Of a DNA stretch of 64,000 bases, positions 30,538 to 41,307 are shown in pieces. This DNA is from Dehalococcoidia bacterium (GTDB lineage Bacteria; Chloroflexota; Dehalococcoidia; SpSt-223). Position 1 is the stretch's first letter; the number at the start of each line of letters is the position of its first letter. A model generated the notes under the pieces. That model was not told the origin of the DNA. It saw nothing but the letters and a program-made list of their open reading frames with translations, and searched no databases. Location: assembly GCA_025054935.1 (NCBI GenBank), contig JANWZD010000001.1, positions 389,008 to 453,007 on the forward strand, in the 5' to 3' direction. Position numbers and translations under genes: made by a program.

Positions 30538-31440
30538 TCAGGCGGTCTGGACCACCATCCAGCCGTCCCCCTTAACGGCATTCTTGCCGACATGGACCGC
30601 TTCTCCCCAGCGCAGCCACGGCACAAGCGGCGTGAGTTCGCCCTGCCAGACGGCCGCTCCGACTATCCCTCCCGTTGGGGTGCGCGTGCCGGTCCGCCGC
30701 GAGCCGCTCCACGCCTCAACCCAGCGGGTGCGCTCCTCAACGAGCTGAGCGGCCCGCGCGACTGCTGCGATTTCAGCGCGCCGCTCGCGCCAAACCGATG
30801 CTAGCGGCGGTGCGACACTGTAGCAGGCGCTCAACGCTTCCAAGCGCTCGAGGAGCCGGTGGGTCAACACTACGAGGTCCGGCCGTTTCACCAGCGCTCC
30901 GCGATGGACGAGGCGGAGCGGTGTTCGGAATGTGACCGTCAGCCTCGCCGCGGGCGCGCACGAGGCACTGACTGCATCGTCATCAAGAACGCCGACTGCT
31001 GCCCCGCTGATTGGCGGTATTCGGCGCGAGGCGAGCAGCGTTGATCGCCCCCGTCCCCGTCCGAAGCCGCGCCCGGCAGCCCACGCGATCGCGTCGACCA
31101 CCGCTTCCCCCAGTTCGATCGCGGGGCCGATCAGCGTGAGGCTGAACGACCAGAGCGCGCCTGCTTCAACCCGCGCCGGCCCCGGCTCAAGAGCGTACGG
31201 CCGGGGCACCGCTTGGCCGCGATGCCGATGGGGGTCCGCTGCCAGCAGCAAAAAACAGGCTGGGCAGTGTCGCCAGTGGCAGGGCGCGCTGCTCGGTCCA
31301 CCATGGCACCAGCGGGCGAAAAGCCCAGCGGCGAGCGCACCCCGCAGCGTTGAGCCCGGGTTCCGGCCGAGATCGACGTCGTCTCTTGCCTGCAGCTGGA
31401 TCTGAAGCCGCTGCACCCGCAGGCCGGTCCGCGCGTTCAC
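30538..31440 (-). CDS. cas6: CRISPR repeat endoribonuclease Cas6 (RAMP family)
   Basis: 300 aa. The N-terminal part STLRGALAAGLFARWCHG, with nearby CHWRHCPAC (two Cys pairs), fits the LRGAL-x-C-x-x-C pattern of CRISPR_Cas6 C-terminal-family proteins. FSFSLTLIGPAIELGEAVVDAI follows, then the GRGFGRGRGRSTL glycine-rich segment. The C-terminus has the RAMP G-rich loop (HVGKNAVKGDGWMV). It cleaves CRISPR transcripts into crRNAs. Its start overlaps the stop of the pyruvate dehydrogenase E1 gene by four bases, so it is translated with that gene. The rest of the Csm operon lies upstream on the same strand. Confidence 0.87.
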   Translation of the reverse strand: MNARTGLRVQRLQIQLQARDDVDLGRNPGSTLRGALAAGLFARWCHGGPSSAPCHWRHCPACFLLLAADPHRHRGQAVPRPYALEPGPARVEAGALWSFSLTLIGPAIELGEAVVDAIAWAAGRGFGRGRGRSTLLASRRIPPISGAAVGVLDDDAVSASCAPAARLTVTFRTPLRLVHRGALVKRPDLVVLTHRLLERLEALSACYSVAPPLASVWRERRAEIAAVARAAQLVEERTRWVEAWSGSRRTGTRTPTGGIVGAAVWQGELTPLVPWLRWGEAVHVGKNAVKGDGWMVVQTA

Positions 31441-33830
31441 TCCACGAGGTCAAGCGCCGCGAACGCGGCGGCGACGATCGCGTCGGCGTCGATCCCGTAG
31501 TAGCGGTAGAGATCGGCCCGCGAGCCCGACTGTCCAAACGCATCGACACCGAGCGGGACCACCGGCGCACCGAACACCCCCCCGAGGAAGGTCAGCGCGT
31601 GGGAAGCGCCGTCGACAACGGTCACGATCGGGGCGCGCCGCTCGGCAGGAGGAAAGAGCGCTGCAAGCTGACCAAAGCGAGCACGCTCGCCGGCGCGTTG
31701 CCGCCGGCGCTGATCGGTCAACTCGGCGGAGAGGCGGTCGGCGCTGGTGATGACCACGAGATTGGCAGCCACCCCTTCCCGATGGAGCCGGCGCGCCGCC
31801 TCAACCGCTTCGGGCACCATCGCCCCCGCGACCGCAATTTGGACCACTGTCTTCGGGTCGACCTCGCCGAGTTCTTCCCGCGCCTCGAGCAGCCGATAGC
31901 CGCCCGCCAACACCTGCTGCCGCAGCGTCTCTGCGCCAAGCCGCTGGAGGGCCGGCTCAAGCAGCCGCTGGTCCACCGGCTTGGTCGACAATCGGAGATA
32001 CATTGCGCGGCCGTTCCGGCGGTCGGTGCACTGGCGGAGCCCCTCGAGCAAAATCCATTCGACCTCGCGGGCAAACGCCGGCTCGTAGCTGATCAGGTTC
32101 GGCAGTTCGATCCCCAGCGACGGGGTGACCGTCGACTGATGCGCCCCGCCCTCTGGGCTGAGCGAGATGCCGGATGGAGTGCCGACGACGATGAACTTCG
32201 ACTCAGAGTAGAGACCGTAGATGAACGCATCCAGCCCGCGAAGAACGAAGGGGTCATAGACGGTGCCGATCGGCAGCAGCAGTTCCCCTTGCATCTCCTG
32301 CGAGAGGCCGAGCTGCCCCAGCAGGAGAAAGAGATTCATCTCGGAGATCCCGAGTTCGATATGCTGCCCTTGAGGCCCAGGTTGCCAACGGACGGGCTGG
32401 GGAGCAGGCTCAAACCGGTCGGCGGCAGTAGCGCTGAACACCCCAACCCGGTTAATCCAGCCGCCGAGGTTCGTCGAGACGGCGACATCCGGGGCGACCG
32501 TCACGATCCGCTGGCTGATGGCGGGCACGCGCGACAGTTCAACGAGCAGCCGGCCGAGTGTCTCTTGGGTCGACGTGGTCGCAAGCGGCTGATGGCCGAT
32601 GCTTGGCGGGATATCCGTCGGCGCAAGCGCAGGCGGACGGCTGGGCAGCGCCGGCCCACGGAGACGCTCGGCCGCCAAGCGGCAGATCTCGGCCTCGGGG
32701 CTGCCAGGAGGAAAGCGGGCCCATTCGTCCTCCGGCGGGATGCCGAGACGCGCCGCCAACTCTTGCATCTGTTTGGCGGTGAGAAGGGCCGAGTGGTTGA
32801 GGGGATGGCCGGCGATCGGGAGGCCCCACCCCTTGATGGTGTAGGCGAACACCACGCTCGGCCGGTCGCGCACTGCCGCCGCTTCCTGAAAAGCGCGCAG
32901 CAGTTCGGCAATGTCGTGGCCGCCAAGATCGCTCACGAGAGCAGGGATCTCCTCGTCAGGAAAAGGCGAGAGCGCGCGCTCAACGCCCGCTGGGTCATCC
33001 GCGCCGACAATGAAACGCTCACGGCAGATCGCTCCCGGCAGCCGGATCGCCGCCTGATACTCTTCGTTGCTCATGTCGTCGATCCGCTGGCGGAGCGCGG
33101 CGCCCCCTGGACCAGCAAACACTGCTTGAAGCCGCCGCCCATACTTCGCCTCAACGACATGCCATTCGCTGTCGCGGAAGATCGCCTTGAGCTGGCGCGC
33201 GCGGATCCCCGGCACCACGCGATCGAGGCTCTGGCGATTCAGGTCGACAATCCACAGGATCGTGCCGACATCGCGAAGATGCTCCTCCGTCACCGCTTCC
33301 CACACGTTCCCCTCGTCCAGTTCGGCGTCGCCGACGAGCGCGATGTACCGCCGATCAGCAGGGCCGCCGAAATGCAGCTGGACATAGCGGTCGGTGAGCG
33401 CCGCGAAGGCCGGCGCCGCCGCTCCGAGGCCGACCGACCCAGTCGAGAAGTCGACCGGGTCGGGGTCCTTCGTTCGGCTCGGATAGGCCTGCAGTCCGCC
33501 GAAACTCCGCAGCGTCGTCAGGTAGCGGCGGTCAAGGTTGCCAAGAAGATATTGGACCGCGTGAAATGCTGGCGAGGCATGAGGCTTGACGGAGACGCGA
33601 TCGCCGGCGCGAAGAAACGCGAAGTAGAGCGCAGTGAGGATCGACACCATCGAGGCGGAAGACGCCTGATGCCCCCCGACTTTGGTGCCGTCCGAGGAGG
33701 GACGGACGGCATTGGCGTGATGGACGATATTGGTCGCGAGCCAGAGCACTCGGCGCTGGATCGATTCGAGCGCCGCCAGCTGCTCAGGGGAGAGCGGGAC
33801 CTCGAGCGTCGGTGCTTCGCGCATGGCCAC
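31437..33830 (-). CDS. Pyruvate dehydrogenase E1 component, homodimeric (AceE-like)
   Basis: 797 aa (E. coli AceE 887). Thiamine-diphosphate site ALVGDAELDEGNVWEAV...ILWIVDLNRQSLD, where the usual GDGE reads GDAE. Other family segments: VGGHQASSASMVSILTALYF, AYTIKGWGLPIAGHPLNHSAL, ELGISEMNLFLLLGQLGLS and VVDGASHALTFLG near the C-terminus. It decarboxylates pyruvate (or a related 2-oxoacid) for an E2/E3 complex; no E2 or E3 gene is in the window. GTG 33830 or ATG 33824. A perfect TTGACA at 33861-33856 on this strand, in the 57-base gap after csm5, hints at its own promoter, but the -10 is poor. Confidence 0.9.
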   Translation of the reverse strand: MAMREAPTLEVPLSPEQLAALESIQRRVLWLATNIVHHANAVRPSSDGTKVGGHQASSASMVSILTALYFAFLRAGDRVSVKPHASPAFHAVQYLLGNLDRRYLTTLRSFGGLQAYPSRTKDPDPVDFSTGSVGLGAAAPAFAALTDRYVQLHFGGPADRRYIALVGDAELDEGNVWEAVTEEHLRDVGTILWIVDLNRQSLDRVVPGIRARQLKAIFRDSEWHVVEAKYGRRLQAVFAGPGGAALRQRIDDMSNEEYQAAIRLPGAICRERFIVGADDPAGVERALSPFPDEEIPALVSDLGGHDIAELLRAFQEAAAVRDRPSVVFAYTIKGWGLPIAGHPLNHSALLTAKQMQELAARLGIPPEDEWARFPPGSPEAEICRLAAERLRGPALPSRPPALAPTDIPPSIGHQPLATTSTQETLGRLLVELSRVPAISQRIVTVAPDVAVSTNLGGWINRVGVFSATAADRFEPAPQPVRWQPGPQGQHIELGISEMNLFLLLGQLGLSQEMQGELLLPIGTVYDPFVLRGLDAFIYGLYSESKFIVVGTPSGISLSPEGGAHQSTVTPSLGIELPNLISYEPAFAREVEWILLEGLRQCTDRRNGRAMYLRLSTKPVDQRLLEPALQRLGAETLRQQVLAGGYRLLEAREELGEVDPKTVVQIAVAGAMVPEAVEAARRLHREGVAANLVVITSADRLSAELTDQRRRQRAGERARFGQLAALFPPAERRAPIVTVVDGASHALTFLGGVFGAPVVPLGVDAFGQSGSRADLYRYYGIDADAIVAAAFAALDLVE

Positions 33831-33887: not shown

Positions 33888-35411
33888 TCAGGCAAGGCGG
33901 ATGCGGAAGAAGGGCGGCAGCGTCAGCACCCGGACGCGGAGGCGCTGGCCGACGGTAAAGCGGACCGCGAGGTTGCCGCCGCCGACTGTAGCGGCGTCGA
34001 GCACTGCCGGCTCGCTCCGGCCGACATCCACCACTAAGCGCGTCGGCTCGATCGCGATGATCTCCGCGTCGAGGATCATCCCTACTTTGATGGCGCGGTC
34101 GGCCAGCCGCGGGATCGGCGGAGGAGGCGCAGCAGCCTGCTCCGGCGCGGCAGCAGAGGGGGGACGGAGCAATGCCTGCAGCGCGGCAAAGGGCGTTGCC
34201 GGCTCCGGGCGGGCCGGTTCCCGCGGGGGCGCCGCGGCCGCCACCGGTGGACGCTCGACGACGGCAAAGGCGTCATCCTCCCAGTCGACCGCAATCGCCC
34301 TCGAGGTCGGGAGCGGCGCTTCCAGCGGGCTGAGGGTGACGAGCGTCCACCCCAGCGGCAGCGCCGGACCGCCCCGCCGCTCGACCAGCTTGCGCGTCGC
34401 CGGAAAGACGCTCTGCTGGGTGCGTCCCCGCCCTTGCCCCCGCTGGTCAGGGCGGGAGCGCTCGGTTGGCCGCCGGCGATCGTCGCGCTCTCCGAAATAG
34501 TCGGCTCGGATTTGCGCCCAATCGGGGCTAGCGGTCAAGGCGAGACCAAGCGACTTCGAGTTCCAGCCTGCTCCCCAGCCGAGGTGGAGGAGAATCACGA
34601 GGTCGGAAGCATTCTCGGCAGCGGCGAGGAGGGCGTCGTAGAAGGCGACCAGCGCGCCTGCGCCCGCCGCGGCGGCATACTCCCGCTCCGCGCGAGCGCG
34701 CCGCACCCCTTCTTCGCGCGCTAACGCGATTGCCTCGACGATCGCCTCGCGGTTTGGGGGAGACTCGAGCCGCGGATGCTCAAGAGCGAGCCAAGCCTCG
34801 TCGATGACGAGGGAGCCGACGAAGCGGCCCCCGGGGGCGACCGCTTCGACAGCAAGCCGGTCCGAGAGCGGCACCAGCGCTCGCGCCTCGAGCCCATAGG
34901 TCCGAACGGCTGCGAGCGTCAGGCGGGTTTCGTCGCTCGGCCGCGCGTCAGCAACGCGGAGAGCGCGGAACCCGCTCGCGCGCGGCTGTGCCCCAAACAG
35001 GCGCCGCTCAAGCGGCTGGGCAGCAAATCGGGCGGCCGGCGCAAGCTCGTCCTTTTTGATCAGCCGCCCCGCCACCCGCTCCCGCTCGAGCAGGGCGGCG
35101 GCAATCAGCGTATGGAAGGCTCCCTTCAGCGCGCTGCCCGGCAGCAGCGGCTGTCCGAAGGCATCCTTGGCGACGGGGCGCACCGGGCCGGGCGGGGTTG
35201 TTCCGCCGAACGGGAGGCGATAGAGCGGCTCCGGCATGCCGAGCAGCCGCCCAGCGCCATCGCGCGGTCCGCTCTCGGGGCCATAGACGAGCAGCGCGCC
35301 GTCATGAACGACATAATCCAACTCCGGCAGCAGCGGAAGGCTCCCGCTGCCGACAGCAAGCGGGGCGACGACGTCAACAACAACCCGAAAGGAGCGCGCC
35401 TGACCGGTCAC
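33888..35411 (-). CDS. csm5: Csm5 (type III-A RAMP) fused to a C-terminal S1/OB-like domain
   Basis: 507 aa; ordinary Csm5 is about 350-400. Csm5 part (1 to about 390): LPELDYVVHDGALLVY near the N-terminus, then PLLPGSALKGAFHTLIAAALL and LLHLGWGAGWNSKSLGLALT, ending FPATRKLVERRGGPALPLGW. Csm5 caps the crRNA 3' part of the complex. A Pro/Ala-rich linker (about 392-435) leads to residues 441-507: IKVGMILDAEIIAIEPTRLV, then DVGRSEPAVL and VGQRLRVRVL. These have the strand pattern and G-x-V-x-G spacing of an S1 RNA-binding domain. Start overlaps csm4 by four bases. Confidence 0.85.
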   Translation of the reverse strand: MTGQARSFRVVVDVVAPLAVGSGSLPLLPELDYVVHDGALLVYGPESGPRDGAGRLLGMPEPLYRLPFGGTTPPGPVRPVAKDAFGQPLLPGSALKGAFHTLIAAALLERERVAGRLIKKDELAPAARFAAQPLERRLFGAQPRASGFRALRVADARPSDETRLTLAAVRTYGLEARALVPLSDRLAVEAVAPGGRFVGSLVIDEAWLALEHPRLESPPNREAIVEAIALAREEGVRRARAEREYAAAAGAGALVAFYDALLAAAENASDLVILLHLGWGAGWNSKSLGLALTASPDWAQIRADYFGERDDRRRPTERSRPDQRGQGRGRTQQSVFPATRKLVERRGGPALPLGWTLVTLSPLEAPLPTSRAIAVDWEDDAFAVVERPPVAAAAPPREPARPEPATPFAALQALLRPPSAAAPEQAAAPPPPIPRLADRAIKVGMILDAEIIAIEPTRLVVDVGRSEPAVLDAATVGGGNLAVRFTVGQRLRVRVLTLPPFFRIRLA

Positions 35412-36337
35412 GCTGCCCCCGCCATGCCGATCGGAAGCGCCCAGCCAGCGCGGAGAACTTCATGCTCCCGGAAGCCCGCGGGGGTCACATCAGCCATGCG
35501 CCCCACGGGAGGACGGCCGTCTACCGGGGCGAGGACACTTCCCGCTGCTATCATGCGGACTGTGCGATGACGAACCGTTCCCGCCGCGCTCGCCGTCCAG
35601 CCGCTTCGATCCTCAAGCTGATACTGGGCCGGCGGATTAAGGACGCCGCCCTCCAGCTCGCGGACCGAGGGAAGATAGAGCGAAAGAGTGCAGTAGCGCG
35701 CCGGCTGGGATGGCTCACGAATTTCGATTGAGCGGACGTCGAGGTCAAACTGGCCTGCTCCCCAGCTGCGCCGGCCGCCGAGACCAGTATCGCCGAGAGA
35801 GCGCAGCGCCGCGATGACATCATCGCGCCAGCCCGCATCGATCTGCGCGATCACCGCCAAACCGCAGCCAGGGGCAAAGCGGACGAGACGGTCGGCGAAG
35901 GGCTCGACCCCTCCCGCGCCGAGGCGGGCGCGGCGGACCTCTTCAACCGCCCAGACCGGCCCCTCCGGCAGCGGCTCGGTCTTGCTGGCGCGCAAGCGTC
36001 CCTCTTGAAGCTCGCGGATTTCGCCCCCCTCTTCTCCCGCCGCCATGGCCTCGAACAGCCGCTGCGACACCCAGCCCGTTCCCCCCGGCGCGGGGAAAAA
36101 GAGAGTATCGCCGACAAAGGGCAGCGCGCTCGAGAAGCGGAGCGGCGGAGCGTCGCCCGCGCTCCGGATGATGCGGAGGAAGCTCGCAAGCCGCGCCGGC
36201 CCGAACAATTCGCGCAGGGAGAGACAGAGCGCGCTGAAGAGGGTGTCCGAGGCGACGACAGGAGACGGCTCGCCGCTGGCATCGGGGCCGAAGTGGAACG
36301 GGCCGCGCGGAATGAGACGAAACAGCGTTGCGTTCAC
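35408..36337 (-). CDS. csm4: Csm4 (type III-A Cas5-like RAMP)
   Basis: 309 aa. N-terminal RAMP ferredoxin fold: LFRLIPRGPFHFGPDASGE, then SDTLFSALCLSLRELFG, the standard SDTLFSAL element of Csm4. The glycine-rich RAMP loop is DTGLGGRRSWGAGQFDLD (about residue 188). Csm4 binds the crRNA 5' handle and Cas10 at the base of the complex. Its start overlaps the csm3 end by four bases and its end overlaps csm5 likewise, so the genes are translationally coupled. Confidence 0.9.
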   Translation of the reverse strand: MNATLFRLIPRGPFHFGPDASGEPSPVVASDTLFSALCLSLRELFGPARLASFLRIIRSAGDAPPLRFSSALPFVGDTLFFPAPGGTGWVSQRLFEAMAAGEEGGEIRELQEGRLRASKTEPLPEGPVWAVEEVRRARLGAGGVEPFADRLVRFAPGCGLAVIAQIDAGWRDDVIAALRSLGDTGLGGRRSWGAGQFDLDVRSIEIREPSQPARYCTLSLYLPSVRELEGGVLNPPAQYQLEDRSGWTASAAGTVRHRTVRMIAAGSVLAPVDGRPPVGRMADVTPAGFREHEVLRAGWALPIGMAGAA

Positions 36338-37143
36338 GCCGGGAGCGCCAAGGCTGACCGGATGGCGTCGGTCAGTTCTTCGAGGTTGTCGAGGAGCGCA
36401 GCAACATCAGGATAGCGGCGGGGCGAGAAGCCCGCGCCTACCTCTCCGCGGTAACTGGCCCGCGAGCGAACCGTGATGTCGAAGTCGACGAACCGCACCT
36501 TGCCGCTGCCGCGCGAGCCGTGCCCGCCGAGATAGCTGTCTTCGACGAGCTGCAGACCGCGGACCACCCAGCCGAAGTCGGCGAGGTCACGCGCAGAGTA
36601 GACGCTGTACACCAGCTCAAGCGGCGCAAGGCGGGCGCCGGCGGGCAGCCGCTCGATCTGGCGCGGGGCCGGCTCTGCTGTCACGCGGTCGACCGATGCC
36701 TCGGACTTCACTTCAGTGTACGGGAGGTCGGTGCGAGCTCGTTTCAGCGCTGCGGCGCTTTCTGGGGCAAGAAAGACATCGCGCACGATCAGGCGAGCAG
36801 CGCCGTCAACTGCGAAGGCGCGCGTCCCGGGCACGCCATAAAGCCGACCGATGGGGTTGGCGTCATACTCTTCGCGGCTCATCGGCACATAGACCTGCAC
36901 GCCGCCCCGGCCGGAAGTGTTGGGCAGCAGACCGAGCAGCCGCTCCGTTTCGGCGCGCATCTTCCCGCGCAGGGATGAGCCAGGGAGATAGGGCTGGCCT
37001 GAGAGCGGGTCACGCACCACCGTGAACTCGAGGCCAGGGATCGCCCCATTCGTGCCTGCGCCGATATGGAGCCCGCTCTCGAGCTGAACGGCCGCGCGAA
37101 CGAGGATGCGCCCGTAGAGCGTCGTTACCGCTCCGTCGGCCAT
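36334..37143 (-). CDS. csm3: Csm3 (type III-A Cas7 backbone RAMP) with catalytic Asp replaced by Glu
   Basis: 269 aa. Motifs: LESGLHIGAGTNGAIPG, VVRDPLSGQPYLPGSSLRGK, MRAETERLL, and the glycine-rich SYLGGHGSRGSGKVRF. Several Csm3 copies form the backbone along the crRNA and cut the bound target RNA every six bases. The active residue of characterised Csm3 proteins is the Asp of I-G-(G/A)-I-D-x-P-V-x-R-D (D32 in Staphylococcus epidermidis). Here the same stretch is IPGLEFTVVRD, with Glu39. Target cutting may therefore be weak or lost. Confidence 0.93.
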   Translation of the reverse strand: MADGAVTTLYGRILVRAAVQLESGLHIGAGTNGAIPGLEFTVVRDPLSGQPYLPGSSLRGKMRAETERLLGLLPNTSGRGGVQVYVPMSREEYDANPIGRLYGVPGTRAFAVDGAARLIVRDVFLAPESAAALKRARTDLPYTEVKSEASVDRVTAEPAPRQIERLPAGARLAPLELVYSVYSARDLADFGWVVRGLQLVEDSYLGGHGSRGSGKVRFVDFDITVRSRASYRGEVGAGFSPRRYPDVAALLDNLEELTDAIRSALALPA

Positions 37144-37158
37144 GACCTTCCTCCTAGG

Positions 37159-37659
37159 CTAGCGCCCGCTGAATTGCGGGCCAGCATAGAAATATGCCAT
37201 CAACGCTTCCACGAAGTGGACCAGATGGTCGAAGCGGTCGCGGTCGTTGCCGACAAGGTCGACCGCCGGCGCCAGCGTTTGGTAGAGGTCGGTGACGCCG
37301 CGCCCGACACCCGCCGCCCGCCCGGCGAGATAGGCGAGCCGCGGCTTCACCAAAGGGAGCGCGCGTCCTTCGTCTGTCGGCCAGTCAAGCTCGATCCGCC
37401 GCAGCTCGCCCCAAAGAACGCGCAGCGCGCCGCTTGTGGCCTGGCGCGCCTCCAGCCGCTCACCGGCAAGAACGCGCGCGACCCGCTGCGCCTCCTGAAC
37501 AATGACCCCAGCATTGCCGTCAACAATGATGGCGCGGAGGTCGGCCGGGTCGATCGGGCGCAGCGGCTCGGCAGGACGGCGTCCTTCGCCGCGCGGAGCT
37601 GCGCTTGGCCGCGGCCCGCCGCGGGGGGGACCGCTCCGTCGTTCGGGCGCTTCAGTCAT
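37159..37659 (-). CDS. csm2: Csm2 (type III-A small subunit) with basic N-terminal tail
   Basis: 166 aa from ATG 37659. The core has the helical Csm2 pattern: LRVLWGELRRIELD, PLVKPRLAYLAGRAAG and the C-terminal DRFDHLVHFVEALMAYFYAG. The first 38 residues are an extra Arg/Pro/Gly-rich tail, unusual for Csm2 and likely nucleic-acid-binding. Csm2 lines the inner belly of the complex. The start overlaps the cas10 stop by eight bases. Confidence 0.88.
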   Translation of the reverse strand: MTEAPERRSGPPRGGPRPSAAPRGEGRRPAEPLRPIDPADLRAIIVDGNAGVIVQEAQRVARVLAGERLEARQATSGALRVLWGELRRIELDWPTDEGRALPLVKPRLAYLAGRAAGVGRGVTDLYQTLAPAVDLVGNDRDRFDHLVHFVEALMAYFYAGPQFSGR

Positions 37660-39883
37660 GGCGTGCCTCCGCCTGCGTCCTGCGCAGCGCCTCTTCCGCC
37701 CAGCGGGCGGCGAGCGCGAGCCGCGCGGCGCTCTCCGGCCGCGCGACATCATTGGTGAGATTCACGAAATCGACCTCCGGAAGCTGCCCCTGATCGGCAA
37801 ATTGACGTAACGCAGCAGTGGCGCGCCACGTCCAGCGGCCGCGGCCGGGTGCGCCTTCTCCTGCGCGCACCACGCGGAGGAGGCGTGGGGAGACCCCGCG
37901 CTTCACGATAAGGTCCGTCAAGCGGTTAAACCGCTCCCACACCGGACGAAACTCGTCCCAGCCGAGCGTTGCGCCGAAGAAGGTGAGCGCGTTCTTATCC
38001 CGACCGACCCGCGCAGGGCCCCCGCCGCGTTGGCGGCGCTTTGCGCCGCGCGCCAGCGCCGCGGCAACGGCACGGTGCTGGGTGTCGGCGCTCCCGAGAC
38101 CGTCGCCGACCGCTGCCGACAGGCGGATGGCCGGGTGATCGCCCGTCAGCGCACTTAACCCTTGGGCGAGCGCAAAGCCGATGCGCGGCAGTTCATCCGG
38201 CCGCCCGAGACAGGTGATCCCGTCGGCCGACCAGTGAACGATCGTGACCGAGCTCGCGGCGTAGCGACCGGCAGCTTCCACGCCGACCGCATCGAGAAAA
38301 TAGCGGAGGAGCCGGCCGCCATCAACGAGGCGAGCGAGCGGCGCTGCAGCGTGACCCGTCGTCCGCAGCTGGCGCGAAAAATCGAGATCGATCTCCAGCA
38401 GGGCGACGTCGGCCGTGCCGTTGCTCGGGCGGAGAGGAGGACGAGAGACGATCGCGATCGGCGCCCGCTGGCGGACTGCCCACGCGCGGACGGCTGGGTC
38501 ATGCGGACCAACGACGCCGAGCCGCTCGAGCCGCGCCCACCGGACATGCTCCGCGAGGTCTTCGCTCGGCGGCTCGGCAAGAAGCGTGAGCCGCCGGCCG
38601 AATGCGGCCAGCGCCCGCTGGGCGGGAGAAGCCGGCACGCCATCGGGATCGGGAAGCGCTTCAATAAGGAGAAAGGCAGCATTCTCGAGCTGATCGCCGA
38701 GGTGGGCGAGACTGGCGGCCTCCTCGTCCTCATCGGGGTCGCGCGCCGAGAACAATCGGTTCAGTTCGACAGCGCCGAGAGCGCCGTAGGGGCGCGCTGC
38801 CGCTTGCTGGAGCAGGCCTTCCAAGCGCTCCATCGCGACACCGATAGCGCCGCCAACTTCGCGTCCCGTGATGGGGGTCGCGGCGATGCTGGCGATGAAC
38901 GCGGCGCCGCCGTCGAGCAAGCGGCGGTCGAGCTCCCGCGCGACCGCCGGCAGGCGTTCCTGTGCCGAGAGCGGAAGGAGGAGGAGCAGACGCCCGGGGT
39001 CGACCGTAAGCCGCGCGACTGGAGAGGCATGAAACGACTCGATCAGCCAATCGGCGAGAACATCGGTCAAAACCGCCTCAAGCAGCGAGCGGGCCTGAAG
39101 GGCACGGAACGTCAGTCCCGCATTCGGATGGCTGAGGCAGCGGCGAAGCCGCACCCCGAGTGCGAGCGCGACCGGGGCGTCGAGCGCTGCGCTCGAGCCG
39201 GATGCCAGTGCTTCAAGGCGCTCATCGGCAGCCTCATCCGCAGCGAGGCAGGCGGCGAGGGCGGCAGTGACGTGAAGGTGCGCGGCGAGCGAGATATCGT
39301 TTGCCGGTTCTCGCGCAGGCGCCGGCACGAGGATGCAGGTGCGCCAGATCAGGTCGAGCAATCCGCTGAGATAGGCAGCGAAGTCGGGACTGGAAGCGAC
39401 GGTATGCTCGGTGGCGACCATCTCCGCAAGGGCAAGGAGACGGCGGCGTACCTCGTCCCGCTCCATAGGAGCAGGGCGGGGGGTCAGCCCCTCGAGGTCG
39501 TGCGGAAGCGGCCCGACGGGGAAGAAGGTCGGCGGGCGAGCGGGAGCGTTCTCCGGAAGGCCGAGGGGAAGAAGGGGGAAAGGAGAACGGCGCTGCAGGA
39601 GAGGCCGCCCGCTCTCCTCATCGTCAGGCCCGCCGGCCGCGAGGCGGTCCGCAGCGGCGACAAGGCGGCTTAAGCGATCGTCCGGCCGGTGATGGGCGAG
39701 GATCGCGGTCGAAGCGGCGCGAAACGGAGCGGGAGCGCGCTCCGCAACGAAAGCGGCCGCTAACGGCGCATGGCCCGTCGTCGGCCCTGATGCATCAGCG
39801 GCGCGCTGAGCGAGCACGCCGATATCGTGCAGGAGGGCGGCGACCACCGCCGTTTGGAGCAGTGAGCCCGGGTGACCTTGCAC
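37652..39883 (-). CDS. cas10: Cas10/Csm1 with HD motif but degenerate GGDD cyclase motif
   Basis: 743 aa from GTG 39883. The N-terminal HD nuclease domain starts VVAALLHDIGVLAQRA and has a later LAHHRPDD. The first palm domain lies around TVDPGRLLLLLPLSAQERLP. The second palm, where Cas10 carries GGDD for cyclic oligoadenylate synthesis, reads IVHWSADGITCLGRPDELP: residues 552-555 are S-A-D-G. No zinc-finger Cys cluster is visible. The C-terminal helical domain (WERFNRLTDLIVKRGVS...) is as in Csm1. It heads the operon, downstream of an extended -10 box. ssDNA cleavage by HD is possible; cyclase activity is doubtful. Confidence 0.9.
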   Translation of the reverse strand: MQGHPGSLLQTAVVAALLHDIGVLAQRAADASGPTTGHAPLAAAFVAERAPAPFRAASTAILAHHRPDDRLSRLVAAADRLAAGGPDDEESGRPLLQRRSPFPLLPLGLPENAPARPPTFFPVGPLPHDLEGLTPRPAPMERDEVRRRLLALAEMVATEHTVASSPDFAAYLSGLLDLIWRTCILVPAPAREPANDISLAAHLHVTAALAACLAADEAADERLEALASGSSAALDAPVALALGVRLRRCLSHPNAGLTFRALQARSLLEAVLTDVLADWLIESFHASPVARLTVDPGRLLLLLPLSAQERLPAVARELDRRLLDGGAAFIASIAATPITGREVGGAIGVAMERLEGLLQQAAARPYGALGAVELNRLFSARDPDEDEEAASLAHLGDQLENAAFLLIEALPDPDGVPASPAQRALAAFGRRLTLLAEPPSEDLAEHVRWARLERLGVVGPHDPAVRAWAVRQRAPIAIVSRPPLRPSNGTADVALLEIDLDFSRQLRTTGHAAAPLARLVDGGRLLRYFLDAVGVEAAGRYAASSVTIVHWSADGITCLGRPDELPRIGFALAQGLSALTGDHPAIRLSAAVGDGLGSADTQHRAVAAALARGAKRRQRGGGPARVGRDKNALTFFGATLGWDEFRPVWERFNRLTDLIVKRGVSPRLLRVVRAGEGAPGRGRWTWRATAALRQFADQGQLPEVDFVNLTNDVARPESAARLALAARWAEEALRRTQAEARHD

Positions 39884-40870: not shown

Positions 40871-41197
40871 TTATGACTCTGCCGGCTTCGTCGCTCGGCT
40901 GCGCTTGAGGGTCTCGCCGCCCTTCTTGCCGATGGTCGAGTAGTAGTCGGGACCGTGGCGCTCCTTGACGGCATAGCCGCCCTTTCGCCCGATGCGCGCG
41001 TAATAGTCGGTCCCGTGCTTCTCCTTCACCGCCTCGCCGCCCTTTTTACCAATCTCAGCGTAGAACTCCGGGCCGCGCTCGGTCGCCACGACGCGTCCGC
41101 CCTTCTTCCCAATGCTGGAGAAGAACGCCGGTCCGTAGCGCTCCTTGACGGTCTTGCCCCCCTTCTTGCCGGCTTCCTTTACGGTCATGTCCGTCAT
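40871..41197 (-). CDS. KGG-repeat stress protein (con-10 / GsiB-like)
   Basis: 108 aa, hydrophilic, with five copies of an I-G-x-K-G-G-x-x-V/x-K-E-R/K-x-G unit of about 20 residues, e.g. KKGGKTVKERYGPAFFSSIG. The motif is found in general-stress and conidiation proteins that are unfolded and desiccation- or starvation-induced. Start ATG 41197 follows a strong aaaggagt site. It has a near-consensus promoter with an inverted repeat over the -35 and a clear terminator, so it is a separate, probably strongly expressed unit. Confidence 0.88.
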   Translation of the reverse strand: MTDMTVKEAGKKGGKTVKERYGPAFFSSIGKKGGRVVATERGPEFYAEIGKKGGEAVKEKHGTDYYARIGRKGGYAVKERHGPDYYSTIGKKGGETLKRSRATKPAES

Positions 41198-41277
41198 CGG
41201 ACGACTCCTTTCTCCCCAATCGACAGCCACGTGTCCGGACTCGCCGCCCTGCCAGTAGCCACCGCACTCTGCAACCA

Positions 41278-41307
41278 ACTATACGAGCAGCTCCGAGAAA
41301 CTGTCAA
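41278..41307 (-). promoter_or_regulatory. Near-consensus promoter of the KGG-protein gene
   Basis: On the minus strand TTGACA (41307-41302), 18-base spacer, TATAGT (41283-41278); leader about 70 bases. One of the best -35/-10 pairs in the window. Confidence 0.75.

Follow-up and report, generated by a model that had tools for sequence, protein, structure and literature searches.

A type III-A CRISPR operon of hot-spring Dehalococcoidia with a degenerate Cas10 cyclase motif and a retained HD domain

The csm operon and its neighbors

The stretch of DNA analyzed here (the window, 64,000 nucleotides) comes from a genus of hot-spring bacteria and carries a csm operon on its minus strand. The first gene, cas10/csm1 (37652..39883, minus strand), encodes a protein of 743 amino acids with an HD domain (about residues 1-110), Palm1, Palm2 and a helical C-terminal domain; its cyclase motif is lost and the zinc-finger CxxC is missing. 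It is followed on the same strand by csm2 (37159..37665; small subunit, Cas11; 168 amino acids as analyzed, identified by family matches), csm3 (36334..37143; Cas7 backbone, 269 amino acids; TIGR02582, 173 bits), csm4 (35408..36337; Cas5, 309 amino acids; TIGR01903, 171 bits) and csm5 (33888..35411; 507 amino acids; TIGR01899, 60 bits), all four of which score above their own NCBIfam cut-offs. Comparisons within the genus used draft assemblies, namely Dehalococcoidia KatS3mg060 (genome G002, locus L011) and genome G001 (loci L010 and L073). At its C terminus Csm5 extends into a region that by eye resembles an S1 domain; this extension has no Pfam match and is also present in the G001 Csm5.

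Based on the NCBIfam Csm1 model TIGR02578, the window Cas10 scores 143 bits (E 1e-41), which is below the 170-bit cut-off. An AlphaFold2 model built with 38 sequences has a mean pLDDT of 87.4 and a pTM of 0.91, and solved Csm1 chains align with it nearly end to end, the best being 6ifn_A (Z 32.5, 653 residues, 2.9 A). The predicted structure is that of a full-length Csm1 fold, and we assign the protein to the III-A kind of large subunit (Cas10/Csm1-type) from the family E value, though under the cut-off, and the match to Csm1 structures.

The catalytic column of the Csm3 alignment holds Asp in 56 of the 58 rows with a residue there, those of L011 and L010 included. In the window this usual, though not formally required, aspartate is absent and the codon GAG (37027..37029, minus strand) encodes Glu39 instead. 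The alignment also included a Streptococcus thermophilus Csm3 fragment; the Glu39 conclusion rests on the database rows. A literature search for Csm3 D33E found no paper. A Thermoflexus Csm3 (L061:2990-3802) also has Glu in this column, and the Cas10 of that locus keeps GGDD.

A transketolase/pyruvate-dehydrogenase-E1-like gene (31437..33830, minus strand) lies between csm5 and cas6, overlaps the start of cas6, and adjoins csm5 in all three congeners (the window, L011 and L073). The cas6-like gene itself (30538..31440, minus strand as for csm) encodes an endoribonuclease of 300 amino acids and occupies the same place in G002; its match to PF10040 led us to reject the idea of a csm locus without Cas6. 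In KatS3mg060 (L011:9511-14677) there is one break in csm5 and there are many in the adjoining transketolase gene, which points to indel errors in that assembly, so the csm5 break is likely a sequence error. Upstream of cas10 is a gene for a KGG-repeat protein with a stress-protein-like repeat (40871-41278, minus strand; four 60-bp units in tandem), and a bifunctional-nuclease-domain gene (PF02577; 40060-40626, plus strand), probably ordinary, is divergent from cas10.

The cyclase and HD sites of Cas10

A Csm3-based scan of GTDB contigs returned 57 related loci, mostly from Chloroflexota. From these we made a MAFFT alignment of the window Cas10, those of the two congeners and 36 other Cas10s, again mostly from Chloroflexota. 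The sequence-only reading had placed S-A-D-G (residues 552-555) at the GGDD position, and this is confirmed by the alignment and the codon positions: TCG-GCC-GAC-GGG (38219..38230, minus strand) sits precisely in the Palm2 column that holds GGDD. One aspartate of the motif is left; the other aspartate and the two glycines are gone. A true GGDD elsewhere in the protein, the check proposed against that reading, was rejected, as no second GGDD-like motif occurs anywhere in the window Cas10.

The motif at this column is TTDG in L011 and STDS in L010/L073. It is thus degenerate in 3/3 congeners, and GGDD is present in 36/36 Cas10s outside the genus in the same alignment. Among 393 genomes of the class, a Cas10 match was found in 16, with GGDD in every full-length Cas10 outside the genus; three of the matches are fragments. 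Because the three species have three different degenerate motifs, sequencing error was rejected as the origin of SADG and is very unlikely as the cause of the motif change in general. The same diversity suggests that the cyclase motif was lost before the species of the genus split. Judged from these alignments, GGDD degeneration is a trait of the clade and not an error.

With the two glycines and an aspartate of GGDD missing from Palm2, the III-A Cas10 would produce no cyclic oligoadenylate (cOA) and hence no second messenger. We considered whether the site might still yield some nucleotide product by a non-canonical motif. One GGDD aspartate remains, as does the Palm2 DxD motif (EIDLDF, 38378..38395, minus strand; D499 and D501, from the alignment and codon positions), although in the G001 Cas10 the first DxD aspartate is also lost. 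Palm2 is still constrained, and active non-GGDD motifs exist (PMC11229360). However, the likely-active variants of Hoikkala and colleagues are all acidic at both of the last positions, which SADG, TTDG and STDS are not, the glycine positions vary freely among the congeners, and structural demands alone would keep Palm2 constrained. We regard residual product formation as highly improbable. The almost full-length alignment of the model with solved Csm1 chains argues that the cyclase domain is retained as a scaffold.

The HD motif LHDIG (39818..39832, minus strand) contains H19 and D20, and with H38, H64 and D79 all of the metal ligands are present; the domain matches PF01966 with 26.9 bits. The description of the HD domain as intact in the sequence-only reading holds for these ligands but not for the lysine of HDxGK, which is invariant in 25/25 HD-containing relatives, and which is Val23 in both the window and L011. 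The conserved ER downstream of the domain is altered in the window Cas10 as well. In G001 the HD region is truncated by the end of the contig. Zinc-finger CxxC motifs were found in none of the three congeners' Cas10s, and nearly all relatives have two. HD domains are present in the Cas10s of 65% of III-A loci.

The cyclase site, absent here, is near-ubiquitous in III-A without being a formal requirement: surveys report cyclase domains in nearly all III-A and III-B systems but in none of types III-C and III-F (PMC11229360), and about 97% of Cas10s have predicted active cyclases (PMC12669027). III-C and III-F resemble the window system in that the cyclase site is lost, HD is often kept, and their loci have no known effectors (PMC11229360). 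They differ in that the window operon consists of the III-A families csm2-csm3-csm4-csm5 with a Csm1-type Cas10; III-C combines an inactive cyclase with Cmr-type, III-B-like subunits, whereas the window subunits match Csm and not Cmr families. The earlier comparison with III-C therefore survives as convergence but not as identity of type. III-G and III-H likewise share an inactivated Palm domain, the lack of an adaptation module and reductive evolution (PMC12669027), but III-G may have Csx26 as its small subunit and in III-H a highly diverged small subunit replaces the Cas10 C-terminal domain (PMC12669027), whereas the window has Csm2 and a complete operon. With regard to the III-F, III-G and III-H subunit sets, the best PADLOC matches of the window genes are Csm models, with only one weak Cas7_IIIh match, in a comparison based on family matches.

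Another type III system elsewhere in the genome

That the window encodes no Csm6/CARF effector fits the genes checked there. As an implication for the whole genome it failed when the remaining sequence was searched for CARF and SAVED effectors. A Cas02710 family search led to a III-B Cmr operon on the same contig (G000:C1:2189-10224), about 420 kb from the csm operon, with a TIGR02710 CARF protein that has a Csm6 HEPN domain (PF09670) and is thus a CARF-HEPN, Csm6-like effector. An effector-free genome was rejected on this basis. The operon comprises cmr1-cmr6, with Cmr1, 2, 4, 5 and 6 above their cut-offs and Cmr3 below (46 of 100 bits). Its Cas10, Cmr2 (TIGR02577), has 594 residues, Palm2 (PF22335) and IYSGGDD but no HD domain, the reverse of the window Cas10, and its Cmr4 keeps the DLPI aspartate. 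The idea of a single Cas10 in the genome was also rejected: a weak Csm1 match at C1:4567 is the III-B Cas10.

The same III-B operon is present in G002, with GSDD in its Cmr2; a CARF family search of G001 gave no match. Searches of the window genome for SAVED, Csx1 HEPN and Csx1 CARF domains returned nothing, the SAVED negative being weak because its control was silent; genome-wide statements of absence rest on such family searches. Given the III-B operon with a GGDD Cmr2 and a CARF-HEPN protein, the genome by its gene content holds the parts for cOA signaling, in a complex other than III-A.

We found no CRISPR array near the csm operon (window positions 25-55 kb); arrays lie elsewhere in the genome. 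Other CRISPR loci are of type I-C (on contig C19) and type I-E (on C25, C31 and C33). The I-C-adjacent array is split over contigs C18 and C19 and has the repeat GTTGCACCTATCTTCGTGATAGGTGAGGATTGAAAC; type I-C array repeats end ATTGAAAC. Cas1 genes lie on contigs other than that of the csm operon. A Cas3-HD match on contig C3 contains an internal stop.

Constraint and proposed function

Based on whole-gene comparison of the window with L011, dN/dS is 0.17 for cas10, 0.15 for csm2, 0.14 for csm3, 0.12 for csm4 and 0.22 for csm5, and 0.05 for the HD region of Cas10; synonymous sites are near saturation in this comparison, so pN is the safer measure. In the Cas10 pair, pN is 0.094 for HD, 0.343 for Palm1 and 0.261 for Palm2, making HD the slowest part. 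In the III-B Cas10 (Cmr2) of the same two genomes it is 0.128 for Palm1 and 0.149 for Palm2. The difference in identity between HD and Palm2 is +0.23 for the window-L011 pair, compared with a mean of -0.13 and a maximum of +0.01 in 299 control pairs that have both HD and GGDD, which share sequences and so are not independent. On these measures purifying selection acts on the cas10-csm operon and is strongest on HD. In III-A, constraint has passed from cyclase to nuclease; in III-B it still rests on the cyclase.

This pattern bears on whether the operon is simply decaying and non-functional, with motif loss as an early step of degeneration. Such decay would account for the loss of GGDD, the zinc finger and the HDxGK lysine, for the loss of part of DxD in G001 and the change of the Csm3 aspartate to Glu, and it would fit the lack of an adjoining array and the location of Cas1 on other contigs. 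On the other side, in the window cas10, cas6 and all of the csm genes have unbroken reading frames, the dN/dS values against L011 are 0.12-0.22 (and 0.05 for HD) with synonymous sites near saturation, and the break in L011 csm5 has the more likely explanation given above. Purifying selection with constraint moved onto HD argues against decay, which we consider improbable.

Type III systems are commonly regarded as signaling systems, and one Cas10 often combines both activities, DNase and cyclase. We propose, with a probability of about 0.6 (0.62), that the window complex is an HD-only, non-signaling III-A system. When a crRNA pairs with a foreign transcript, the Csm complex would open and then allow the HD site of Cas10 to cleave nearby single-stranded DNA. 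We infer HD activity and the lack of cOA synthesis from motif loss in three species together with the kept HD ligands and DxD, all of which are seen directly. Support for the non-signaling, HD-retaining Cas10 in a Csm-type operon put forward in the sequence-only reading thus comes from the alignment, the motif loss across the clade, constraint that has shifted from Palm to HD, and purifying selection. Against the HD-only reading stand Val23 in place of an invariant lysine, the change at ER, the missing zinc-finger cysteines and, in G001, the lost first aspartate of DxD and the truncated HD region.

There is a precedent in LdCsm, the III-A system of Lactobacillus delbrueckii, which makes no detectable cOA and yet clears plasmids (PMC7214462). 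Like the window system it has a III-A operon, an HD DNase and DxD, with no Csm6 gene in its locus. When both of its GGDD aspartates are mutated the DNase is unimpaired, whereas HD, DxD and zinc-finger mutants are strongly impaired (PMC7214462). Since the LdCsm DNase needs HD and DxD and not the GGDD aspartates, the kept HD and DxD and the lost GGDD of the window Cas10 fit this precedent; the missing zinc finger does not, as LdCsm cysteine mutants lost DNase activity. LdCsm also differs in having QGDD, with both aspartates kept, as well as a zinc finger, and restored GGDD gave no cOA (PMC7214462). Its genome has no detectable Csm6 homolog, whereas the window genome has a second, signaling type III system. 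A cOA-negative III-A system is therefore already published, but a GGDD-dead III-A clade and its reciprocal pairing with III-B look new. We found no reports of reciprocal HD/cyclase splitting in the literature covered, most subscription papers being outside that coverage.

How the HD-only III-A relates to the III-B complex is less certain. It may be a stand-alone non-signaling system, as originally proposed, with III-B an unrelated neighbor that has its own targets and no labor divided between them. The cyclase of Cas10 is lost and no CARF gene was recognized in the window; the L. delbrueckii III-A works by its DNase alone (PMC7214462), and as a recognizable HD is present in just 39% of Cas10s overall (PMC11229360), an HD-less III-B alongside may be chance. 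Yet cyclase loss is rare in III-A, and here each of the two genomes examined pairs it with a complementary cyclase system; we think an independent III-A rather unlikely.

We tentatively infer crRNA sharing and functional cooperation of the HD-only III-A with the signaling III-B from the co-occurrence of the reciprocal operons in two species. Cooperation is the weakest step of the proposal, plausible but short of an even chance. The separate Cmr complex, with a GGDD Cas10 lacking HD and the Cmr4 aspartate kept, would make the messenger for the CARF-HEPN RNase, and DNase and cyclase activities would probably be divided between the two complexes. Their crRNAs would likely be supplied in trans, with the type I-C array as one possible source. 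In Pyrococcus furiosus either HD DNase or signaling alone is enough for plasmid immunity (PMC7192623). The fullest version, somewhat unlikely in all its parts, is that within the genus DNase and cyclase are split over III-A (HD-only) and III-B (cyclase-only, with the CARF-HEPN RNase) drawing on a common crRNA pool, and that the slicing residue of the window III-A has changed so that its DNase stays on longer.

A natural III-A clade with the cyclase gone and the DNase kept, beside a complex with the opposite set, offers a clean natural test of the HD DNase alone, and the paired complexes in one genome a natural test of the idea that a single immune program may be served by two CRISPR complexes. 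The mirror image of the window Cas10 occurs in Herpetosiphon, where three III-A Cas10s (L024:5267-7489, L026:5261-7477 and L033:5284-7488) have GGDD and no HD motif.
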